Source of the DNA: Chlorella sorokiniana
Lineage: Eukaryota; Chlorophyta; Trebouxiophyceae; Chlorellales; Chlorellaceae
NCBI GenBank assembly: GCA_025917655.1
Contig: CP084615.1
Location: 186,001-250,000 of the forward strand
Length of the DNA: 64,000 nucleotides
Direction: 5' to 3'
Numbering within the stretch: position 1 is the stretch's first letter; every line of letters starts with the position of its first letter. The translations under genes and the position numbers were made by a program. Positions 14,128-64,000 of this stretch are shown in pieces. The notes under the pieces were generated by a model. That model had not been told where the DNA came from, made no database searches, and saw only the letters and a program-made list of their open reading frames with translations.

Positions 14128-17100
14128 CCGCCCCCTGCCTGCAGCGGCGCCGACGCCGAGCTGATCGACGAGCCGGCGCCGGCGGGCCAAGCTGGCTTTG
14201 TGGATGTGGTCACGCTCTGGCGCTTTGTAAACGAGGTGGGTGCAGGGGTCAGGAGCGGCCCGCCCCCTTCACCCGCCCGCCCGCCTGCCGATGCCGCGGC
14301 GGGGCGGGTTGGGCGCGCAGGCTGGCGCTGGGGATGCGGCACGCGTGCTGCGTGCATGAGCTGTTGCCGCTCCAGACAGCAGGGCCCCAGACAGCAGCTG
14401 CCCAGCCCCCTCCGCCCTCTTGCAAGCTCTCTCTCCGCGTGCGTAGAGGGACCCTCCCTCCGCCTGCGCTGCGCTGCGCTCCCGCTCGCTCTGCATGAAG
14501 CATCAAAACAGGAAATGCTGCCCTACTGAGCTTCGCCGCTGCCCCCGCCCCGCCCCCGCCGCCCGTCTGTGCGCCAGGTGGCGTCCACCTACCAGCGCGT
14601 GGCCTACCACAACTTCCAGCACTGCGTGGACGTCACCCACACCACCTTCATGTTCATAAAGTGAGGCTGGCTGGGGGTGGTGGGGCAGGGGTGCGTGGGT
14701 GTGTGTGGTTGGGTAGGTGGGTGTGGGTGGGTGGTGTGGGGCGGGGAGTTTGGGGCGGGAGCGGGGGCCGCTGGTGAACAGGGGCCTGCTCCGGCGCTGA
14801 CAACAGCAGAAGAGTCGCCCATGCCCCAAGCATCCTCCCATACTGAACTTGCCCAGCCTCCCCCACCAGCCAACCACCCACACACAACCTTCCCCCACCA
14901 GCCAACCACCCACACACAACCCCCCTCACACAAACACACACACCTCTTGAACAGGCGGGTGGCCCACAAGGTGGCGCTGTCCGAGCTGGAGAAGTTTGCG
15001 CTCATGGTGGCCGCGCTGTCGCACGACCTGGACCACCCAGGTGACAGCCGTGCCGCCGCCGCCCGCCGCCGCCGCTGCTTGCCCGAGATCGAGGGTATAT
15101 CCACGACTTGACCTTTGTAGCAACATTCGCTGCTGCCGCTGCTCCGTCGCTGGTGCAGCCGCCGCCGCTGCTGCTCTGCTACTCGCCCCGCTGTCTCTTT
15201 TCTTGTGCGGCATGGGGGACAAGGCAGCCGCGACTGCCCTCCTGAGGCAAGGTGCTTGGCGGCGCTCCCTCTGCCGCTGCCCTTCGCCGCCGCCGCTCTC
15301 CTGCCCGGTCACTTCTGCGACATGTGCCTGTGCCCGCCCTCAGGCGTAAACAACGCGTTCCTGGTGAACGCCCGCGACCCGCTGGCAACGACGTACAACG
15401 ACAGCTCAGGTGGGTGGCGCTGAGCGTGCTGTGCCACGCTGGGCATCCCGCTGTGCCGGCCGCTGTGGGTGCAAAGGAGTCCCACTCATTGCCCACCCAC
15501 CCACCCACCCAAACACACGCACACACACACACACACCACCTGCCGCCCCTGCCGCCCTCGTCACCCGCCCGCAGTGCTGGAGAACCGCCACGTGGCCTGC
15601 CTCTACTCCATGCTGCTGACCAAGCCCTCGCTGGACGTGTTTGCGCGGCTGGAGGCGGGGCAGTGGCGGGAGGCGCGCAAGATGGTGATCGGGCGGTGCT
15701 GGCCACAGACATGGTGCACCAGTGAGTGGGGGGTTTGAGGTGGGGGGATTAGGGGGATGGGGTGGTGGGGAGGGTGAGGGGGATGAGGTGGTGGGTAGGG
15801 TGCGGGGGCTGGGGGGATGTGTGTGTGTGGGTTTGTGCGTGTGTGTGTGCGTGTGTGTGGTGGTGGTGGGGTAGGGGGCGAGGCTAGCGTGAGTGAGGGT
15901 GCGGATGCGCAAGTTATGCGTGGGTTTGAGGGTGTGCGAGGGAATGTGGCTGCCCCACCTCCCCCGCAGCTTCCCCATGGTCTCCAAGCTGGAGGTGTTC
16001 TACGAGCTGCACGCCGCCAGCATCCAGGCCCACCACCGCGCCCTGCGCCAGGGCCTCCCGGTGAGCCGCTCCCTGTTTGCTCGCTGTGTTGTCCAATGTG
16101 TGGGTGGGGTGCCGTGGTGATGGCATGGATGGGTGGGTGGAGTGATGAGGGTGTGAGTGTGAGGGGATCGTGAGGACACTAGGTGGCATGTCCTGTATTC
16201 ACAAGGCGGCAGCGGGGACGCGGACCGGGAGGGTCCCCACCAGCTCTCGGGCCCTCCTGCATCATCACAGGCCCGCCGTAGTAGCAGCAGCTGGCCCGTC
16301 GCCGAACCACAGTGACCCCGCCCCCCTCCCCGTTTGCAGCGGCGCGCTGCCCCGCCTGTTTGACGCCGCCGAGGAGCGCCAGCTGCTGCTCAACCTGCTG
16401 CTGCACTGCGCCGACATCTCCAACCCCGTCAAGCCGGCGGCGGTGGCAGAAAAGTGGGTGTGGGAGGCGAGGAGGGGGTAGGAGGGCGGCGGTGCCAGCG
16501 AGGAAGGAGGGGGTGCTGTGCCGGGAGGCCGGCCTGCTGTCGAGGCCGGCAAGCCCCAGGCGGCCCCGTCCCCACGCCCCCGCTCTTCCTGTTGTCGCTC
16601 GCAGGTGGGCCGATCGTGTTCTGGCAGAGTTCTTCGCCCAGGGCGATCGCGAGCGAGCTGCGGGGCTGCCCGTCAGGTGGGCCAGGCAAAGTAGTGGGAT
16701 AGCTCTCCTTGTGCCGACGGGCGGCGCCGCGCCCGGCAAGCTTGCCGGCCGGCCCCGCTCCCAGGCAGCCACCGCGTGCAAGCGGTAGTGGTGGTGGTGT
16801 GCTGCCGCTTTGCTGCCCTGCCAGCAGTGCCAAGCCCTGCCCGCCCTGCCCTCCCTGGCCCCCTCCCCGCAGCCCCATGTGTGACCGCAGTAAGACCAGC
16901 CGGGCGGCCTCCCAGATCAACTTCATCGAGTTCGTGGTGGCGCCCATCTACGTGCAGGCGAGGCACTGGCGGCGTGTGGGGGTGTGTGTGCGGGGTGGGG
17001 GGTGGGGGGGGGGGGGGGGGGCGCGCGCGGGGGGCTCCTGTGGAAGTTAGAAATGAGCTGGATCGGGCGGCAAATGCTCGTAGGGCACCCCCCACCACCA

Positions 17101-52784: not shown

Positions 52785-53519
52785 CTAGGTGCACGTGGTG
52801 CTGGGCGTGGCCTTGGTGAAGGGGCTATCCACAAACGCTGGGTTGAGCGGTGTGGGGCGCAGCGTGAACCCGGTGACTTGCATGATCCAGTCGTGGCAGA
52901 TGCCGTAGTCCCGCAGCGCCTTTTGGTTCTGGCAGATGTAGTCCATGAAGCGCATCTCGTGGTCGGCGGCGGCGGGCCCAGGAGGCGGGTCCTCAAGGCC
53001 TGCCTGGCGGTGGCTGGCGAGCGCCGCCGCCACCGCCCGCTGCTTCACTTCTAGGATTGTTGTGTCCATCTCGCAATCCAACAGCTCTAGATAAGACTTC
53101 TCCTGCCACCTGCCCATCAGAACGTTCACCATAATCTGGACCTGCGCAGCGGGCCCCTGGAAGAGGTTGGCGTGAGACAGCCGCAGCGGGGGACGGTGAT
53201 GTGGTGGTGCAGCTGCAGGGCTGCCGCAGCGAGACGCCAGGCTCTCGCGGCGTGTCAAGCTTACGAAGAATTGGATACGGCTTACCATGCTCGGGTTGAG
53301 GGGCCGCACGACACAGTCAAAGCCGGCGAGGAACAGCGGGAGATGACGAGTCGCCCTCGGTGCCCAGGACTGCTTCACGCAGCAAATCGACGCATCAAAG
53401 TGATCTGGGATGTTTGACACCAGGCGCGACACAAAACTGCCCTTGCACAGGGCGAATGTTGGAGCGAGCGCCAGCCTGGCAGCAGGGTTGCTGTGAGGCG
53501 GTCCTGATGGTAATCGCAT
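52785..53519 (-). CDS. Small protein of unknown family, possibly ubiquitin-like fold
   Basis: An open frame runs over the whole interval on the minus strand. A good donor (ATG|GTAAGC, near 53285) and acceptor (CTTCCAG, near 53160) suggest one intron removing the low-complexity middle. The spliced product would read FLAGFDCVVRPLNPSM then GPAAQVQIMVNVLMGRW, QEKSYLELLDCEMDTTILEV, KQRAVAAAL, and after a Pro/Ala linker HEMRFMDYICQNQKALRDYG, ICHDWIMQVTGFTLRPTPL. The beta-strand/helix pattern around DTTILEVKQ resembles a ubiquitin-like fold, but this is only a visual impression. The stop is at 52785-52787; the start at 53519 is uncertain. It lies head to head with the SbcD-SbcC gene, 74 bp apart, so the two probably share a promoter. 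Confidence 0.6.
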   Translation of the reverse strand: MRLPSGPPHSNPAARLALAPTFALCKGSFVSRLVSNIPDHFDASICCVKQSWAPRATRHLPLFLAGFDCVVRPLNPSMVSRIQFFVSLTRRESLASRCGSPAAAPPHHRPPLRLSHANLFQGPAAQVQIMVNVLMGRWQEKSYLELLDCEMDTTILEVKQRAVAAALASHRQAGLEDPPPGPAAADHEMRFMDYICQNQKALRDYGICHDWIMQVTGFTLRPTPLNPAFVDSPFTKATPSTTCT

Positions 53520-53593
53520 GCTTTGAATCTTATGTGCATATGTTGGAGAATCTGCAGGTGGCAGAGGTGGCGGTGATGTGGCCCTGACGGGAG
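53520..53593. promoter_or_regulatory. 74-bp divergent promoter
   Basis: Only 74 bp separate the inferred starts of the minus-strand gene at 53519 and the SbcD-SbcC gene at 53594. If both starts hold, transcription must begin within one shared element or inside the neighbouring gene. No core motif recognised. Confidence 0.4.
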
Positions 53594-56500
53594 ATGCCGT
53601 TCTTCAGGCAGCCTTCCCTGCCTGCTAGCAGCGAGGTTGGCGTTGCACCTCAGGCTATGCCGGCGATGGAAGCAGCGCGGCGATGGCGCAGGGCAGCGGC
53701 CCCGCTCCTGCGCTCCGCTTGGCGGGCTGGAGCGCCGGCCGGTGGCGGGGAGGCCCAACGCTGCAGCGTGGCCACATCCGCGCGGCGCAGGCAACAGGGC
53801 AGCTCCCCAGTGACTCCGAAGCTGCGAGTGCAGCCGGGGGGAGAGGCGGCGGCCAGGGGACAAGTGGACCTGGGCTGCTGCGTGCCACGCGGCGACGCCT
53901 GGGCGGAGGCGGCGGTGCCGCAGCGCTGGCTGGCCTTCAGCGACCTGCACGTCTCGCACCGCACCCTGGGCACCTGCCTGCAAGTGCTGGAAAGCGTGCA
54001 CGAGGAGGCAGCCCGCCGCGGCGCCGGCATCCTCTTCCTCGGTGGGGCCGACGGCGGCAGCGTCGTGTGGGATGCTCTGCTGCCGAGCGCCTTCAGCGCA
54101 GAGCAGCACAGCCTTCCGCACGTTGCTTGCAACTAGCCGGGATCCGTGCAGCGCGTCCGACAGCGCTTCTGGATTTTGCTGCCTGCAGGCGACTTCTGGC
54201 ACACGCGCGGCACGCTGCCCGTGGAGCCGCTGAATGCGGTGGTGGGCCAGCTGGCGGCCTGGCGCCAGCCGACGCTCATGCTGCCGGGGAACCATGACCA
54301 GGTGCGGCGCATGGCGGCGGTGGCTTGCGGGAATGTTGTGCTGGTGTATAACACAAGGAAGGGAGCCGGCAGGGTGGCCAGAGCTGGCGCCAAAGCTGGC
54401 GAGGCGGTCGGGAAGGGGGGTGGCCAGCCGGTGCATGCTTGCTGGCAGCCGCTGCCACCACCTGCCTTCCTGCCTGGCTTCAGGTCTGTGTACCTTCTAG
54501 CCGCACTGCTGCCGCCACCCAACCGCAGGTGTCCCTGGGGGTAGGGTGCATGCGCTGACGCCCTGGCGGCGGCAAACCCGCTCATCCATGCGTTTGACGG
54601 TGGGTTTGGTCGGTTTGCGGCACTTTTTCGGTGTGTTGTGCGCTTCCTCGGGGTTGGGCAGGCGGTGACGCAGGATGAGACCGGTAGCAGGCTCTGAGCC
54701 TGCCCACTGTCCCCAGCTCGCCTGCCCAGCTCTCCCAAGCCTGCACTGCCATCCTCCCCCACCCACCCCCTTTGCAGACCCCACGCTGTTCCTGGGAGCC
54801 CTCTGGCTGCCCTTCCGCCGCCGCAGAGAAGAGCTGGAGGCTGCGCTGGCGGCAGCAAGGGCGGAGGCGGCTGAATCCGGGCGGGAGGGGGCGGCAACGG
54901 CCCGCTGCTGCGGGCCGTCTTTGCCCACACCGACATTGTGAGCCGTGGCCCCCTCGCCTGCTCTCTTTCAAGGCTGCTGTGGAAGCTTATCTCTTCTTTT
55001 CATCCTTTCTTTTGCCCTTCCCTGCTGCGGAGTGTGTCCTCCTTTCAGGAGTAGCTTGGGGGCGCAGCTTGCCCCGCCAGCCCCAACTGCCCGGTGCTCG
55101 CCACCAGCACCCGCATGCCGCAAGCGAAGTGTCTGCCCAGCTTCCACCTGGCTTCTGTCTGGCCGTACCGCCTGCAGGCCGGGGCCCTGATGAACGAGGC
55201 CTACCAGGCGCATGATGGCCTGCCCCCAGACATCTTTCCTCCAGACATACCCACCTACACAGGTGGGCAGGCGGGCGGGCAGGGGGTCACCCGGCGCCAG
55301 CGGGCAGCCTTTGTAGGGCGTCCCTCCTGTGAGCAGCTCCCCCAGCTGGGGGCAGGCGTTTGGGGAGGCTTCTCAACCCGCCCGCCGCCGCCCGCCGCTG
55401 CCTGCCGCCACCTGCCTGCAGGCCACTACCACCTGCCTCACACGGTGGCGGGCAGCCGAATCACCTACCTGGGCTCACCATACCAGGGTGTGATGAGGGA
55501 GTGGGGCGGTTCTGTATGAACAGCTGCTCCCACCTGTCCTGTTCCGTTGGATCTGTCTCTGCATCGACGGTACATCTCATTGCGTTGGAGCGATTTGCGT
55601 CTTGGGCCTGCAGCCGACGCCCCTTTGAGCGCTGACTGCCGGCCTGTCCCCACCGATCCCCTGCGCCCCCCCGCCCCTTGCAGTCACGCGCGCCGAGGCG
55701 GGGCAGCAGAAGCGCCTGCTGCTGCTGGACCGTGCCGTCGGATGGGAAGTTGCCGAGCAGCTGCCCCTGGACCTGGGACCACGGTACTTTGCTGCAGCGG
55801 CGGTACCGGCCGGTCCCGCAGCGACGGTGCAGGCAGACGGGGGCGCGGATGCCTCGGCCGCGGCAGAGGCAGGGCCGAGCGGCGGCGCGGAGGCGGCGGC
55901 TGCACCCGGCCCGGAAACGGCGGCAGGCGAAGCTGCGGCTGGGGAATTGGCAGCAGCAGCAGCAGCAGCGGCAGAGGGCGCTGAGTTCCAGCTGGCCATC
56001 CCGACGGGGCTGCGAGCCGGGGACCGCCTGCTGCTGACGATGCCGGCGGCGGCCGCCAAGCAGCACGCGAAGCAGCTGCGGCGGCTGGAGAAGCAAGGCG
56101 TGCTGCTGGAGCTGTTTACTCCTCCCGAAGCGGCGGCCACCCCCGTCTGGGCCCTTCCGAAGGCCTCGCGCCGCTGCAGCTGTGGCAGCGCTACGCCGCG
56201 TGGCAGCGCCTGCCGGCGGCCGCCGCCGCTGGCGCTGATCTGTTGACCGGGGTGCTTGGGGGCGGTGCCGGGCGGCGGCGGGCGCCCTGGAGGGCCAGCA
56301 CACGACCCTGGCGTTTGAGGCTGTGGAGGTGGAGGGGTATTTCAGGTGCGGTTGTATGGTGCTGCTGTGCGGTACCGTTCAGGGCAGGCTGCAGCCACCC
56401 TGGGCGTTGGTGTTCTCAATCTTGACGAGACTGGCAGCCTTCCGATCGCTCCCCTCACCTCCTGCTTCACGGCTTTAAATGTCCCTGCGCCCCTGGCCAC

Positions 56501-59500
56501 CCTTGCTGCAGCTTCCAAGAAGCTGTGCGGTACCAGCTGGGCGGGCGGGGCCTGGTGGTGGTGACCGGTCAGGTGCACGACACGCCGGAAGCAGGTGTGC
56601 CCCGCGGCTCCGTGTTTCTGGCAAGAGCCACGCAGCACCCAGCCTGTGCACTCGTTGGGCTCGAGCAAGGGCCGAGTTGGATGGCAGAGGAGGCTGTGTA
56701 CCGCAAAAACAACCAGCCGGGCTGCCATTGCCACGCTGCCTTGCACATCGCTTGAAAGGTGCTCTGGCTCGCCGCGCCGCTGCCTGCCTCGCCCACGCTG
56801 CTGCCTGCCTCGCCCATGCCACTGCCCACAGGCGTGGAGTCCAACGGCGCAGGCAAGACGGCTTTGATGATGGCGCCGCTCTGGGCACTGACAGGCTCAG
56901 TGGATGCGCGGGCAGAGGCGAGCGCATGTGCCTGCATCGCCTTCACTTCCCTCCACGCACCTGTGCCGCCGCGCTCGCTGGAACCGCTGCCTTTTGTGTG
57001 AACCAACACACTGCCGTGACTTCCCCTCCTGCTGCCCCCCCCACCACCACCACACACCTTCACCGTGCAGGGCGCCGCCGCCTCGGGCGCCCGCGCCCTG
57101 CTGTCCGACATCATTCATGACGGCTCCAAGCGGGCGCGGGTGCGTGTGGAGGGCCGCGTCAACGGCGCCCCCTTTGTCGTGGAGCGCACGGCCAACCGCA
57201 GGCGAGCGGGCAGCTTCCCGCTGGGGAGGGGGCGCGGGGGGGCGCGCGCCTGCTCTTGATTGCAGTCATCTTGAGCACGCCCCTTCCCCCACCACCACCG
57301 CCACCACCGACCTCCAAACACCTTCCCCTCGCAGGAGCTCCACAGTCACTTTTGAGCTGGATGGCGAAGACCTCACCACCCAGGCAAGCCTTTACAGCCC
57401 CCCAGGGACCCACCTCACTCCCAACCCCGGCTGCCGCGTCCGGCTGCCCAGCAGGCCGGCATTCTCTTCCGTCTTGCCCCACCCGTCATGCTCTGCCACG
57501 CTGCACATTTGCGCCCCCTCCCCCTTCGAAGAAGCAGCCATCAACACAGCACCCGTCCGCCCCCATTCAAGCAGGAGAACCGGCTGACTCAGCAGCGCAT
57601 CGATGTCGCCTTGGGCGCCGAGCTGCTGGGGCGAGTGGTGTTCTACGGGCAGAGCGACGTGACGGCGCTGCTGGAGGTGGGCGGTGGGGGTTGGCTGGTG
57701 GGGGCTTGGGGTGCATTGCGGATCGCTTGCGAGGTGCAAATGTGTGTGAGATGGTGTGCCAGTGACAGCCTGTAGCCTGTGCATCGCGTTCGCACGCGCA
57801 TCTCGCGTTGGGGCGGCTTCACAGCACACACCTCTCCCACCAGTCAATGGTGTGCTTCCTGCTGTGACGCACACACCACCCCGTCTCCTCCCTAGCAGGC
57901 CTCCGACCGCGCTTTCAAGTCGGAGCTGGCGAAGCTGGTTGACCTAGAGGTGTGGGGGCGGCCAAGGAAGCCTCCAGGGCTGAGGTGGCGGCCAGGTGGG
58001 CTGGCTGGTGGGTGGGTGGGTGGGGGGGAGCTGGGTGCCTGCCCCGCACCTTCCCTCTATGCTTGCTGTGCTTCTCTGTGGTTTGTGCCTGCTGCGCTCA
58101 TGCTTTTGTCTGCAGACCTCCCACCCTCCGGCTGTGCCTGCTGCTCTTCTCTGTGGTTTGTGCTGGCTGCGCTCAAGCTTTCCTCTGCACCCCTCCATCC
58201 TTCCCGCTGTGCCTGCTGTGCTCCTCTCCGCCCCTGGCAGGCGGGACGCGCTGCGGGACGCCGCCGCCTCGCTGCGGGAGCGCTCGGCGGCGGCCGAGTC
58301 GCTGGAGCGCCAGCTGACAGCGCTGCAGGCGGCTGCCGACGAGGCGGCGGTTGCGGCTGCAGCGGCGGCGGCGGGGCTGCGTCGCGGCTGCCGAGCTGCT
58401 GGGCAGGCTGCAGGCGCAGCGTGCGGCGCTGACTGCAGCGGCGGCTGCATCGCGGGGCCAGGCTGAAGGGCTGCAAGCTGAGGCTGCGGAGCTGGAGCGG
58501 CAGCTGGAAGCCGTGCAGCAGCAGCAGCAGGAGCTACGGGTGCTGCAAGGGGACCACCTCCCTGCTCTAGATGCTTCACAGCTGGTGGCTGATGCCGAGG
58601 CGCGGCTCCAGGCAGCACAGCAGGCGCAAGCGCAGGTGCAGGGGGAGCAGCAGCAGCGGCAGTATGAGGCCTGGGCGGCGGCGGGGTCACCGCCGATGCC
58701 ACCACAGCGGCGGCGGCGGCGGGACGCTGCGGCGGCGGCGCAAGCCGAGCTGGCGGCTCTCTTGCAGCGCCACCCAGGGCTGGCTGCCAGCGCAGACAGC
58801 ACTGCTGCAGAGCAGCTGGAGGGGCTGCTTCAGGAGCTGCAGCGCCGTCTGCAGGCTGCAACGCGTGCCGAGCGCAGCCTTGCCGACGCCAGCGTGGCGG
58901 CAGCCGCGCAACAGGCCCGTGCGGCGGCGGCGCGCTCCGCTGCAAAGCGTGCTCAGCAGGATGCGGCGGCGGCAGCGGCGGCTGCTGAGCTGGCGGCCGG
59001 CCAGCTGGGAGGGGAGGCGACGGCAGCGCCGAGCGTGGAGAAGGTGCAGAAGGAGCTAAAGAGCCTGCGGCGGCGCGCAGCGGCGGCACAGCAGCGGCTG
59101 GGCGCGGCTCAAGGGCTGGCTCAGGAACGGCGGCAGCAGCTGGAAGACTTCTTGCGTCTGGCTGCAGGAGCCAGCAGCGGCGACGGCCCCGGGCGACGGG
59201 TGCAGCGGCGGAAAGCAGGGGAAGCGGCGAAAGGAGCTGCGACGGCAGTGCTTGGGGCTGAAGCTGAACCCAGCCATCTGCATGCGACAGAGGCCGGGGG
59301 CGGCAGTCCCAGCAAAGCGGTGTGCGACCGCTGCCATCAGCCCATCAGCAGAGAGCAGTTTGAGGAAAGCGCAGAGCGGCTGCGGGCGGCGGCGACGGCC
59401 GCTGAGCAGAAGCTGGCGTCGCTGCAACAGGCATGCGCGGACGCGGAGGCGGCGGCGGCCGAGGGTGTGCGGCGGCAAGAGCTGGCTGCAGCTGCCGAGG

Positions 59501-62421
59501 CGGCAACGGCAGCTTGGACAAAGGCGCAGCGTGCGGCTGCTGCTGCGGAAGGGGAGGCGCGGGCCGAGGCTGCTCGGCTGGCTGCTGCCGAAGCGGCTGT
59601 TGCAGAGGCAGAACCGGCCTTGGCAGGCGAGCAGGCCGCCGGCGCGGCGCTGCAAGACGCTGTGGTGCAGGCAGAGGCCGCGGCAGCGCTGGAGGAGCAG
59701 CACGTGATGTTGCAGCGGCAGGCCGCGGCAGCTGCCGCCGCAGAGCACGCCGCCGCCGCGCGGCAACAGGCAGCAGAGGCCGCCGCTGCCGCTGCCGACG
59801 CCGCGCTGCAGCAGCTGCAAAGAGACGCTGCGGAGGCTGCTGCTGAGGTGGCTGCAGCCCAGCAGGCGCTGGCGACGGCGCTGGAACGCGGCGGAGAGGC
59901 TGTGCGGCTGGAGCAGGCGGCGGCGCTGCTGCGAGGGCAGCTGGAACAGCTGCAGCAGCGCCGCCGCGTGTTGGAGCAGCAGCTCGCGACGGCAGCGGAG
60001 CTCTCTGAAACCCAGCTGGAGGCCGCCGCCCGCGGAGCTGAACGCAATCTGCTGCAGCGACGGCATGGAGCCGCTCCTCCCAATGGACGCAGATGATCCA
60101 GCAGCAGCAGCAGGAGCAGCAGGAGCAGCAGAGGAGGGGGACGCCGCCGCGGCGCTGGAAGCCGGGCTGGCTGCCGCCCGCGACGTCGCCGCCGCCTGCT
60201 CCGACCTGGCGCAGCGCTGGCGGTGGCACGGCGCTCAGCCCAACCTGCCCGCGCGGGACGCCGCCCTGGTGGCGGCGCAGCTGGCAGACGCGCGGCGGGC
60301 GGTGGCGGAAGCTGAGGGGAAGCAGGCGGTCCTGGATGATGAGCTGGCGCTGTGGAAGCAGGCACGCCGCTGGCTGCAGGCACAAGCAGTGCCCCAACCC
60401 ATCCGTATGCACCCTTCACAGAGACCCTATCGCACACGCTCGCCGCTGTAGCCACATGCTGCTGCACTGTAGCTGCACACTCGCAAGCTCTCCCGTCATC
60501 CTCCACGCATTCAGTCCTGCGCGCCCCCCACACACACACACCCACACACCCACACCGCACACACACACTCGCTCGCGCGCACACGCACCCACCCACAGCC
60601 CCCTTCCCTTCCGTCACACCTTTCCCTCCAGGTGGACGACTGCTTCCTGCCGCGGGGGTGCCCAACTTTGTGGTGGAGGGGGTGCTGGGCGACCTGCAGG
60701 CAGCGGCGGCACGTAACCTCAGGCGCGCACTCAGGCCCCGAGTGCTGCACTGGTTGCATTGTTTGTGTGTCTCTGTGCCGTGTGAGCTTGTGGCTCTGGC
60801 GCCGGCTGATCAGCGGCGATGCAGCCTGCCACCTGGCTTGTCTCAAGACGCTGCCTTCCCGCCTGCACCCCACCTCCCATACCCATCCACTACATACTCT
60901 TATTAACACAAACACAACAACGGATGCCCCCCATGCAGTACGCTGACGAGCGGCATGAGCCTGACGCTGAGCCCCTGCAAGCCCGCCGCCGCCGCCGCCC
61001 GCAAGCGCAAGGGGGCCGTCGACGGCGAGGCGACAGCTGGCGGCACCATTGAGCAGATTGAGAAGGTGGCCGGGGCCGGTTGGCATTGCACCGCTGCGGG
61101 AATGCCCAGCCTTCTGCTCTGCTATTGCTGCCTTTGACACCGCCTGCTGCTGTTACCTCAATTAACTGCTTTGCTACTTCACTGATCCTTTGCTGCCACC
61201 CGCCCCACTCCCCGCAGATTGTGCACGTGCGCCAGCCTGGCAGCCTGGAGATGAGGCAGCGCAGCGTGCGCCAGCTGTCGGGTGCGCCCTCTGCCGCCGC
61301 CGCCTGGCGCCCTGCAGTGCCCGCCCACCTCCCCCTTCACCGCCAGACCTTCCAGCGCCGCCAGCCGGCTGTGCCTCTCCGCCCTGCTGCTGCTGTTCCT
61401 CTTCCGCCGTGCAGCACGCCTGCTCCGGCTGCCTGCCAGGCACTTTCCCGAGGCAAAGCAAGGGCATGCAAAGCTCCTGCCGTGCTGCCCTCTTGCTGCA
61501 GGCGGCGAGCGCCGCCGCGTCGCCCTCGCCCTCGCCCTGGGCTTCAGTGAGCTGGCGGCGCAGCGCGGCCGCCTGCGCAGGTGGGTGCTCCCCTGCCTGC
61601 TTGCGCTGCGCTGCCTTTGACGCGCATCGCCGCTCGGGCATCGTCCCTGCGGCGGCGGCGGCGCCCTTCCGGCTCAGCCCATGCTCCGAGGCCTGGCCCT
61701 GGCTCCTCGCACGTCCAACCCCCACCCCTGCCCCTGCAACCTGCACCCGTCCACGGCATTGCACCCTTGCTGCTGCCTACAAGACCCTCTCTTGCTGCGC
61801 CTGTGGCTGCCCACCCTGTCCCTCCGGAGCGGGATCTCAACACCCCGCCCCCGTCCCACACCACACACACACAAGCAGACACGCACGCTACACCCGAATC
61901 CACGCCCACGCCCACATACCGTACCCACTCGCCCCCTGCAGCAACCTGATCGTTCCCCTCCTTAGCCACATATTTCACATACCCCCCTCTTGCAGCAACC
62001 TGATCGTGCTGGACGAGGTGATGCAGCACCTGGACGGCGAGGGCTGCCTGCGGGTGGCCCAGCTGCTCAAGCAGGTGCGGGGGAAGCTGCGAGGCAGGCT
62101 GGCTGCGCTGGGGTCTCCTCGCTGCCGACTGGGCTCTGCCGCTTGCATTGAAGCGGGCGGCAGGCAGCTAGACCTGGGAGGCCCTGCTTGTGTTGGCGCC
62201 TGCGCCAGTGCACCCTCCCACCCGCACCCACTCGCACTTCATCACCTCCTTCCTTGCGGTACCCCCTCCCCCGTCCTGCGGTACAGCTTCCCTACAGCTC
62301 CATCCTGGTGGTGGCCCAGGCCCACTCCCTCCTCACCCAGGCCTTTGATGCCACCGACGTCGTCGTCAAGAGCGGCGGATGTTCTATCGTGGAGCAGGGC
62401 AGCGCGGCGGCCGTGGCCTGA
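53594..62421 (+). CDS. SbcD nuclease-SbcC/Rad50-type ATPase fusion
   Basis: Twenty exons: 53594-54041, 54189-54301, 54529-54599, 54778-54937, 55178-55262, 55422-55497, 55684-56345, 56512-56567, 56832-56917, 57071-57201, 57335-57383, 57575-57676, 57899-57949, 58241-60379, 60632-60722, 60939-61065, 61218-61281, 61502-61580, 61996-62074, 62287-62421. An Arg/Ala-rich N-terminus suggests an organelle transit peptide. A calcineurin-like phosphoesterase follows (FSDLHVSH, GDFWHTRG, LPGNHD, FAHTDI, GHYHLP), as in SbcD/Mre11. Without a stop the chain enters an SMC-like ATPase: ESNGAGKT Walker A, VVFYGQSD, about 700 residues of Ala/Gln-rich coiled coil with a zinc-hook CDRC, the signature RQLSGGERRRVAL, and Walker B LIVLDEVMQHLDG. 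SbcCD cuts hairpins and processes DNA ends. Five introns have GC donors. Frame changes at seven or more G/C runs look like missing bases. The start could also be 53657 or 53666. Confidence 0.9.
55684..56345 (+). other. Exon joining the SbcD and SbcC halves
   Basis: One exon runs from the end of the nuclease half (AGQQKRLLLLDRAVGWEVAE), through an Ala-rich linker, the SbcD C-terminal region (AEFQLAIPTGLRAGDRLLL, LQLWQRYAAWQRLPAAA) into the ATPase start (LAFEAVEVEGYF). There is no stop in the followed frame. Two G/C-run corrections (near 56145 and 56272) are needed. Confidence 0.8.
59323..59334 (+). other. Zinc-hook CxxC of the SbcC half
   Basis: Encodes CDRC within KAVCDRCHQPISREQFE, in the middle of the long coiled coil. 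This is where Rad50/SbcC carries the CxxC that joins two molecules through Zn2+. Confidence 0.85.
61218..62074 (+). other. ABC signature and Walker B of the SbcC half
   Basis: Exons 17-19 encode HVRQPGSLEMRQRSVRQLSG, GERRRVALALALGF and NLIVLDEVMQHLDGEG. The signature LSGGE is split between exons 17 and 18. Walker B has LIVLDE with the catalytic Glu. Confidence 0.93.
61934..62007 (+). repeat. Duplicated acceptor and exon start (SbcC exon 19)
   Basis: GCAGCAACCTGATCGT occurs at about 61939 and again at 61992. The second copy begins the real exon 19 (NLIVLDEV). The first reads on into non-coding sequence. Confidence 0.8.
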
Positions 62422-62506
62422 TTCGGGCCCAGGGCGGCGGATGTTCTGTCGTGCAGGAGGGCTGTGGGCCGCCCGTCGCGTGATCAGGCGGCGGAATGTG
62501 CTGCAG
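62372..62506 (+). repeat. Repeats overlapping the SbcD-SbcC stop
   Basis: The last coding segment (GGCGGATGTTCTATCGTGG at ~62374) recurs with changes at ~62435 and as a shorter third copy at ~62487. Spacing is about 55-60 bp. The copies after the stop at 62419-62421 are in the 3' UTR. Confidence 0.7.
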
Positions 62507-64000
62507 CGGGCGCCAGCATGCGCCGATGGCCACCCCTATGGAGGGCTGCTATGTGCTGTTTATGCGAATGCGGCTTGTGCATGCTTAGGTGTTGCAGCCC
62601 TTACAAATGTGCAGCCAGTTACAGGTGGTCCCAGCACTGCAAAGAGCATCACTCACCACCGCCGCGCAGCAGCAGCGCCGCGCTCGCGCCGCTCAGCGCG
62701 AGCGCCCGCCGCAGCTCTTCGCGGGCGGCGCCTTCGGCCTGCCGATGGCGAGCGGCAATGTGCTGCGGCGGCGTGTCGCGGCTGCGCGGCAGCCGCCACG
62801 GCAGCTCGCCGCTCTGCCAGGATGCTCCCACGCTGCTGCAGCCCAGCTCGCTTCCCGGGCTCCAGCACTCGCCGGCTGCGCTGGACGCTGCCGGCAGCGA
62901 GAACCTGTCAGCTGCGCTTGCTGCCAGCAGCGTCAAGCGCGCAGCGGGCAAGCTCTGAAGCGAAGCTGCTGAGCTTGGGAGCAGCTCCACGCACGCCCGC
63001 TGCGACTGGCAGTACGGCGGCTGCCCAGGGGGCGTGGTGGGCGGCCCAGCAGGCGCAGCGGCACCGCGATGCCGGCTCCTCTTGTAGACCCAGGAAATCC
63101 GGCATCGATAGGCTCAGAGCCAGCAGTGGCGCTCAGGGAAGGTCCAGACGAAACCTCTCCCCCTCCGCAGGCGCTGCTGAGGGCGACAGCCGGCCGCAGC
63201 CGCAGGCGCCAGGGCTGAGCGTTGGCTGGCTGGGCCTGGCGGAGTGGGCTGCCTGGGGGCCTCCTGCTGGACTGTCGCATGCAAGGCCGCCGCCGTCGTG
63301 ACGTGCATGCGCATTAGGCTCATCAGCCGCCGCTATGGAAGCTTGCTGGCCGGTTGGCGGCGCTGTAGGGCACCTGTGTGGGCAAGCAGGGCCGGCTTGG
63401 CTGGTGTGGCCGGGCCCGTCCTGCTTGTGGCTCCCGCCCTCGTGCTCCTCCTCCGCCTCCGTCAGGCTGGCTGCAGGCAGCTGGGCTTCGACAGAAGCAG
63501 GCTGCACTGCAGGCTCAGCAGCAGCAATGCCGCCCCTGTTCAGCCCTGCCGCTGGGGCGTGAGCTGCTGCTTGGTCTGCTTGCAGCTCGCTGCTGCTATC
63601 TGCTGCGCAAGCCGCTGCCTCATCACTGCCGGTGTAGGATTCGAAGCTGTGGCTGCTGCTGGGGGCGGGCTGTCCACGCTGCAAACTGCCGCCGACGCCG
63701 CAGCTTGGCTGCTGGCAGTATCTGCAGCAGCTGCTGGCGCTGGCAGCGGCGACAAGGCAGCAGCCGCAGGCCCTTCATCATGCTCGGCCGTACTTGCGAC
63801 GGTCCCTTGCCGAGCACACGCAGCGCTCGGGCGCTACCGCCGGAAACAGCCCTCCCGGCCCTATGGCTGGCTGCCCGCTGTGTGCTGTATCGGCACCACC
63901 AGCAGCCGGCGCTGGAGTGGTGCCTTGTGGGCTCCCCCTGCCTTTGCATCGTGCACCGTGGCTGGAAAGCCAGGCACACAAGAATCGTGCACAGTGGCTG
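62422..64000 (-). CDS. Possible 3' part of a low-complexity minus-strand gene
   Basis: Open frames on the minus strand cover most of this stretch, for example 63684-63133 (SHSFESYTGSDEAAACAADS) and 62990-62649 (ending SGASAALLLRGGGE). Composition is Ala/Ser/Gln/Pro-rich with no known motif, and the frames would need splicing or corrections to join. The gene, if real, continues past the right edge. Plus-strand ORFs here are equally unsupported. Treat as weak. Confidence 0.28.

Follow-up and report, generated by a model that had tools for sequence, protein, structure and literature searches.

A candidate single-chain SbcD–SbcC gene with a probably phage-type nuclease half in Chlorella sorokiniana

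Gene layout and domain content

The window analyzed here is a stretch of 64,000 nucleotides of Chlorella sorokiniana DNA (contig CP084615.1, positions 186,001 to 250,000), with a GC content of 64–73%. Between nucleotides 53594 and 62421 it carries one plus-strand gene in which a Mre11/SbcD-type nuclease domain lies N-terminal to a Rad50/SbcC-type ATPase, given nine frame changes in the DNA. Three-frame reading resolved this gene into 20 exons comprising 4876 coding bases, the exon borders being fixed by splice sites and reading frame. Translation would start at an ATG (53594) that is preceded by an in-frame stop codon, and end at a TGA. The splice sites of the 19 introns are consistent, with 15 of the GT-AG and four of the GC-AG type. 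The GC donors, which follow exons 9, 10, 11 and 15 (56918, 57202, 57384 and 60723, respectively), represent a high share (4/19), provided that the borders are correct. The features of the gene are as follows.

53594–62421, plus: whole gene, 20 exons, nine frame changes within exons
53594–53920, plus: N-terminal extension of about 110 residues with an Arg-rich amphipathic stretch, ARRWRRAAAPLLRSAWRA; putative transit peptide
53594–54041, plus: exon 1, with SDLH (53939–53950)
54189–54301, plus: exon 2, GDFWH and GNHD (54287–54298)
54529–54599, plus: exon 3, two frame changes
54778–54937, plus: exon 4, catalytic H of AHTD (54926–54928); one frame change, at the run of five G at 54887
55178–55262, plus: exon 5
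55422–55487, plus: exon 6, GHYH (its G split by the intron) and YLGSPYQ
55684–56345, plus: exon 7, the junction exon, with the SbcD cap and C-terminal part, the Ala-rich linker and the first SbcC strand; two frame changes, at the runs at 56140 and 56258; stop in the nuclease frame at 56244–56246
56512–56594, plus: exon 8, GRGLVVVTG and most of the P-loop insert, which was compared with loci L001–L003
56832–56917, plus: exon 9, Walker A ESNGAGKT (56837–56860)
57071–57201, 57335–57383, 57575–57676 and 57899–57995, plus: exons 10–13, remainder of the SbcC N-lobe; exon 13 has a frame change at the run of five G at 57954
58241–60388, plus: exon 14, coiled coil; two frame changes (58373, and near 60050, the latter not localized)
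59323–59346, plus: zinc hook CDRCHQPI, read from the sequence
60632–60722, plus: exon 15, aligned with phage SbcC; frame change at the run of five G at 60654
60939–61065, plus: exon 16
61218–61281 and 61502–61580, plus: exons 17 and 18, with the ABC signature SGGE split across both
61996–62074, plus: exon 19, Walker B NLIVLDE and D-loop
62287–62421, plus: exon 20, end of SbcC, stop TGA at 62419–62421

Exon 19 has its acceptor and initial codons (GCAGCAACCTGATCGT) in two copies, at 61936–61960 and 61992–62012, about 60 bases apart, and Walker B is reached from the second copy only.

Elsewhere in the window the following neighboring genes were recognized; a codon-usage scan for them was uninformative.

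64–1130, minus: chromodomain and SNF2 helicase exons of CHD1 type (Chromo, 2.3e-10; SNF2, 7.2e-9; yeast CHD1, 5e-13)
14578–16954 (approximate), plus: exons of a cyclic-nucleotide phosphodiesterase gene other than that at 15679–15710, with PDEase_I on two exons, both under the Pfam cut-off
52812–53168, minus: likely exon of a head-to-head upstream gene, from a composition scan that is suggestive only; no match in Pfam

The predicted protein begins with the N-terminal extension, followed by a phosphoesterase core of SbcD/Mre11 type and a capping region. An Ala-rich linker then leads to the SbcC part, in which an N-lobe bearing Walker A precedes a coiled coil that carries the CxxC hook and a C-lobe that contains SGGE and Walker B. 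As the original prediction had it, all of the SbcD motifs (SDLH, GD, GNHD, H and GHxH) and then the SbcC motifs (Walker A, CxxC hook, SGGE and Walker B/D-loop) are colinear on the plus strand across the 20 exons. In an alignment with six SbcD proteins from phages and viral contigs, the metal-ligand positions (D and H of SDLH, GD, GNHD, H and GHxH) are invariant. A Pfam search with the joined reading, in which an X was placed at each frame change, returned SMC_N (2.4e-12), AAA_23 (8.6e-11) and Metallophos (3.6e-4, exactly at the cut-off). Matches to solved structures were weak and confined to SbcD/Mre11 (best E-value 0.014), apart from one to RecF (E-value 0.4).

The canonical NCBIfam models for SbcD recognized the nuclease half weakly (9.9e-5 and 6.9e-4; 19.5 bits, below the curated cut-off of 77.65). 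Those for SbcC gave 1.2e-3 for the N-lobe and 4.1e-7 for the C-lobe (16.9 and 28.3 bits, below the cut-off of 478.5), a low score being partly expected since the lobes were submitted apart to these models (TIGR00618, TIGR00619); several transporter families outscored canonical SbcC on the C-lobe. The phage families performed far better, with phrog_100 (SbcD-like) at 5.1e-17 and phrog_77 (SbcC-like) at 9.5e-8 and 1.6e-15, although the NCBIfam and PHROG figures are roughly comparable at best, because the libraries differ in size and make, and both searches used an earlier end of exon 8. Judged from the sequence, this domain content is beyond chance, since independent motifs occur in the correct order and the PHROG matches reach 5.1e-17 and 1.6e-15.

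Exon 8 had been proposed to end at 56567. The first viral contig found (L001), which carries adjacent SbcD and SbcC genes, has a P-loop that reads GENRDDPSTASNGAGKT, and the exon was therefore extended to 56594. This restores an insert ahead of Walker A that is found in the phage relatives; in the window it reads GQVHDTPEAGVESNGAGKT, about ten residues, and depends on the chosen end of exon 8.

Frame changes and the junction of the two halves

The full protein requires nine frame changes within exons: two each in exons 3, 7 and 14, and one each in exons 4, 13 and 15. Seven correspond to one base fewer, while the two in exon 14 are of the opposite sense or by two. Frame changes coincide with six of the 15 exonic runs of at least five equal bases, against one of the 29 runs of four; of the remainder, one lies at a run of three and one, near 60050, was not localized. 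Reading them as tiny introns was rejected, since two fall within one 71-base exon. A similar fault occurs in the neighboring phosphodiesterase gene, where the exon at 15679–15710 (plus strand) loses its frame at a short G run near 15691; bridged with one X, it aligns to PDE4 across the break (E-value 1.4e-5). In the other neighbor checked, the chromodomain-helicase gene, a 159-codon stretch is open in one frame. We conclude that the frame changes most probably reflect faulty sequencing. This is a better account than decay because six of the nine changes are at G or C runs of five and a similar fault is present in a neighboring gene, with two neighbors checked, one with a break and one without.

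The junction exon had been described as free of stop codons. As written this is false: the nuclease frame of exon 7 runs into the stop at 56244–56246, and the first SbcC strand lies in another frame. The claim of a single-chain fusion nevertheless draws support from the order of the motifs, the shared junction exon, and the lack of an ATG in the two ATPase-side frames from 56130 to Walker A. No ATG is present in any frame at 56130–56343 or in exon 8, and the ATPase frame does not reach a Met until 56867, downstream of Walker A. Further upstream, the closest ATG of exon 7 (56040) belongs to the nuclease frame and falls within the C-terminal part of the nuclease. One uninterrupted polypeptide would agree with the absence of an ATG ahead of Walker A in the ATPase-side frames, yet the sequence at hand interrupts the reading frame. 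Poly(A)-type signals (TGTAA, AATAAA) were absent across 53000–64000, which favors neither one gene nor two. With ATG starts alone considered, one gene is the best reading, because an ATG ahead of Walker A is missing from the frames of the ATPase half.

Two other accounts of the broken frame deserve attention. That a former fusion gene is decaying into a pseudogene is rather unlikely. The number of exonic frame changes, the one near 60050 that is tied to no run, and the exon 14 pair running in the other sense would all suit decay, but the pieces between the changes are free of in-frame stops and keep the catalytic motifs intact, and both the clustering at runs of five G or C and the like fault in one of the two neighbors speak against it. 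A pair of adjoining genes, nuclease then ATPase in the bacterial or phage manner, could explain why the nuclease frame stops at 56244–56246, and separate open reading frames are indeed found in 89 of 91 related loci and in all 18 of the nearest group (two of these being copies). This arrangement would leave the ATPase gene without an ATG start before Walker A (ATG starts only being counted), and a single exon with splice sites on both sides encodes the C-terminal end of SbcD together with the opening strand of SbcC. In addition, eukaryotic fusions with such a layout have been published (PMC3175470). We regard two genes as very improbable.

Relationship to phage and bacterial SbcD/SbcC pairs

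A tblastn search with the nuclease half returned 15 phage records, none with coverage up to 80%. The plasmid collection gave no tblastn match to this half, though published fusions occur on plasmids, which indicates that the window is not close to those plasmid fusions. The ATPase N-lobe, with the earlier end of exon 8, matched two phage records and no confirmed viral contig. Scans with single L001 proteins recovered L001 and L002 only. Alignment A2 was too diverse for scanning, and the narrower A3 was used instead; it yielded six loci in bacterial genomes and 92 confirmed viral matches, of which 80 were kept. Three of the six bacterial loci (L010–L012) are canonical SbcC and served as canonical rows. 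With near-copies counted, 90 of 91 loci hold both SbcC and SbcD open reading frames, SbcD being upstream on the same strand and at most about 4.3 kb away. On one viral contig (L030:5846–8683) SbcD and SbcC form a single open reading frame of 946 amino acids, the sole fused case among the 91 loci, and this is an independent fusion in a prokaryotic virus in IMG/VR.

A scan with the nuclease halves of the window and of L079 identified 18 loci, including L001 and the L079 contig, with 27–37% identity over most of the nuclease half. In the nearest group (L079 and L112–L128; 18 loci, two of them copies) SbcD is followed by SbcC, and none is fused. One member, L113, has on one strand matches to a DNA polymerase, a UvsX-like recombinase, SbcD, SbcC, a RuvC-like resolvase and a polymerase processivity factor, a gene set that, from these matches, is a phage replication-recombination module. 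Between SbcD and SbcC of L113 (8947–9504) is an open reading frame which, by eye, resembles a free-standing HNH homing endonuclease.

In a tree of the nuclease half (44 rows) the window joins the nearest phage group (support 88/91, not starred), in a sampling where the phage group itself was chosen by likeness to the window and where long branches meet. The AU test rejects a grouping of the window with five canonical bacterial SbcD proteins (p 0.0013, and 0.023 with an earlier sampling). The phage SbcD of L056 and L088 group with canonical SbcD, hence the phage type does not form a single clean clade. In the ATPase half, the N-lobe tree is compatible with both the canonical (AU p 0.41; 0.34 in the earlier sampling) and the phage grouping (0.40), as is the C-lobe tree (0.24 and 0.34, respectively, with one canonical row on a very long branch). 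From these alignments the ATPase trees do not decide between phage and canonical kinship. All of the trees were built from rows other than cyanobacterial, archaeal or eukaryotic ones.

The motifs around the P-loop and the zinc hook were compared by row. Most phage-type rows carry inserts of 7–11 residues ahead of Walker A, and in the nearest group an insert is read in 12 of 16 distinct rows; it is not read in L119, L121, L127 and L128, L127 being visibly without one. The T4-type row L005 also lacks it. The distinct canonical rows read GPTG[AS]GKS, with the insert absent in all five, a count taken from directly read rows because the automated count is unreliable (it gives a figure for the insert-less L127). 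The scan pattern contained SNGAGK, so this core was selected for and the insert was not. The hook motif CxxCxQ occurs in 15 of 16 distinct rows of the nearest group, in 10 of 75 other rows and in none of five canonical rows; for CxxCxQP[VI], to which the CDRCHQPI of the window conforms, the counts are 9/16, 2/75 and 0/5. The 75 other rows are mostly of phage type, with near-copies counted, and the hook played no part in the selection of loci.

The SbcC half, at about 1090 residues in the joined reading, equals canonical SbcC (open reading frames of 705–1088 amino acids, some of them cut) and exceeds most phage rows (about 500–760 amino acids). These lengths argue against a straightforward origin from phage, or else point to lengthening at a later stage.

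The motifs had originally been called bacterial rather than Mre11/Rad50-like. For the nuclease half this description does not hold, as the canonical models score weakly, the phage families score far better, and grouping with canonical SbcD is rejected (AU p 0.0013). The nuclease half is probably of phage type, and phage SbcD/SbcC pairs are the likely source of at least this half.

Known fusions, origin and possible role

Fusions of this kind have been known since 2011, and the present one is not new in kind. Yoshida, Claverie and Ogata (2011) described thirteen Mre11/Rad50 fusions, whose carriers include Mimivirus (R555), plasmids and a phage as well as the moss Physcomitrella, the diatom Phaeodactylum, two Micromonas and two slime moulds (PMC3175470). 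The premise that fusions of this sort are not known from eukaryotes is wrong. In that study the fusions fall outside the canonical clades, with those of moss, diatom and prasinophytes grouped at 91% bootstrap, and viruses, plasmids and transposons were proposed to have created and spread them (PMC3175470). The window contributes a nuclease half of phage type together with the phage group closest to it, a corrected end of exon 8, and a caution over the frame changes. Among the matches listed in a search of the open-access literature, we came across no paper that reports a fusion of this sort in a chlorophyte besides Micromonas.

Set against their published descriptions rather than their sequences, the 2011 fusions resemble the window gene in having nuclease first and ATPase second in a single chain, the complete set of metal-ligand and ATPase motifs, a GDxxH that replaces GDxxD, as it does in R555, and a nuclease half outside canonical bacterial SbcD; the window differs in its organism, its 20 exons and its long Ala-rich linker. 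The phage pairs (PHROG 100 and 77; nearest L079 and L112–L128) share with it 27–37% identity in the nuclease half, FLGDFWH and LPGNHDQ (which were also the scan patterns), the CxxCxQ hook and, in 12 of 16 rows, the P-loop insert, but they are two genes, unfused at 18 of 18 loci, with shorter SbcC open reading frames (636–752 amino acids). The T4-type gp47/gp46 pair, represented by Synechococcus phage S-CRM01 (L005), has the six-motif nuclease and the ATPase, but its genes are separate and the P-loop insert is absent; gp47/gp46 act in recombination-dependent phage replication (PMC3175470). Canonical bacterial SbcCD (TIGR00619, TIGR00618) has the same domain order, catalytic motifs and long coiled coil with zinc hook, but is encoded by separate genes and lacks the insert (five of five distinct rows), and its models score the window weakly. 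Some Ostreococcus tauri viruses are reported to encode a protein that has a putative Rad50 domain at its C-terminus and in which the authors saw no resemblance to Mre11 (PMC12906663).

A canonical bacterial SbcD/SbcC pair acquired by gene transfer, with the plastid ancestor as one conceivable donor, and joined into one gene in the nucleus would account for an ATPase half compatible with canonical grouping (AU p 0.41 and 0.24), for a coiled coil as long as that of the canonical rows and for a possible transit peptide. It is nonetheless improbable, since the nuclease-half tree rejects it (AU p 0.0013, and 0.023 in the earlier sampling, in trees without a cyanobacterial row), the phage families outscore the canonical models, and the canonical rows read GPTG[AS]GKS without an insert in all five. 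Equally improbable, in our estimate, is that the protein performs the ordinary nuclear work of Mre11 and Rad50. Its motifs and layout match those of both proteins, but the cellular hosts of the published fusions also retain a normal pair, with Deferribacter as the exception (PMC3175470). Quite probably, the locus is a eukaryotic nuclear gene producing a SbcD-type nuclease and a SbcC-type ATPase as one polypeptide.

Two such chains would pair through the ATP-bound SbcC heads and the zinc hook, the linker tying each nuclease domain to its own ATPase. ATP binding and hydrolysis would open and close access to the SbcD active site, thereby admitting a DNA end or hairpin, while the coiled coil and zinc hook would tether ends. 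By analogy with SbcCD and T4 gp46/gp47, the enzyme may trim blocked or broken DNA ends and nick hairpins. The fusion could plausibly bring advantages, in that it would fix the two activities at a one-to-one ratio and make it easy for them to be transferred together. As to its origin, the D and C genes may have stood side by side in a phage-like ancestor, with fusion occurring there or after transfer, and the protein may be a member of the group that unites the moss, diatom and prasinophyte fusions in Yoshida et al. (2011).

The hydrophobic moment of the Arg-rich stretch in the N-terminal extension is 0.77, a value reached by 18 of 2000 shuffles. Such an N-terminus could be a mitochondrial or plastid presequence, and action in an organelle is possible. 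Other phage-like replication proteins are present in organelles. Perhaps, and we suggest this tentatively, the gene is a phage-derived counterpart of T4 gp46/gp47 that was captured by an algal ancestor, fused and given a presequence, and now serves recombination-dependent replication or repair of plastid or mitochondrial DNA.

This locus probably adds a green alga to the sparse set of eukaryotes with single-chain Mre11-Rad50-like enzymes. If organelle targeting is true, it would also offer a means to test DNA-end processing in algal organelles.
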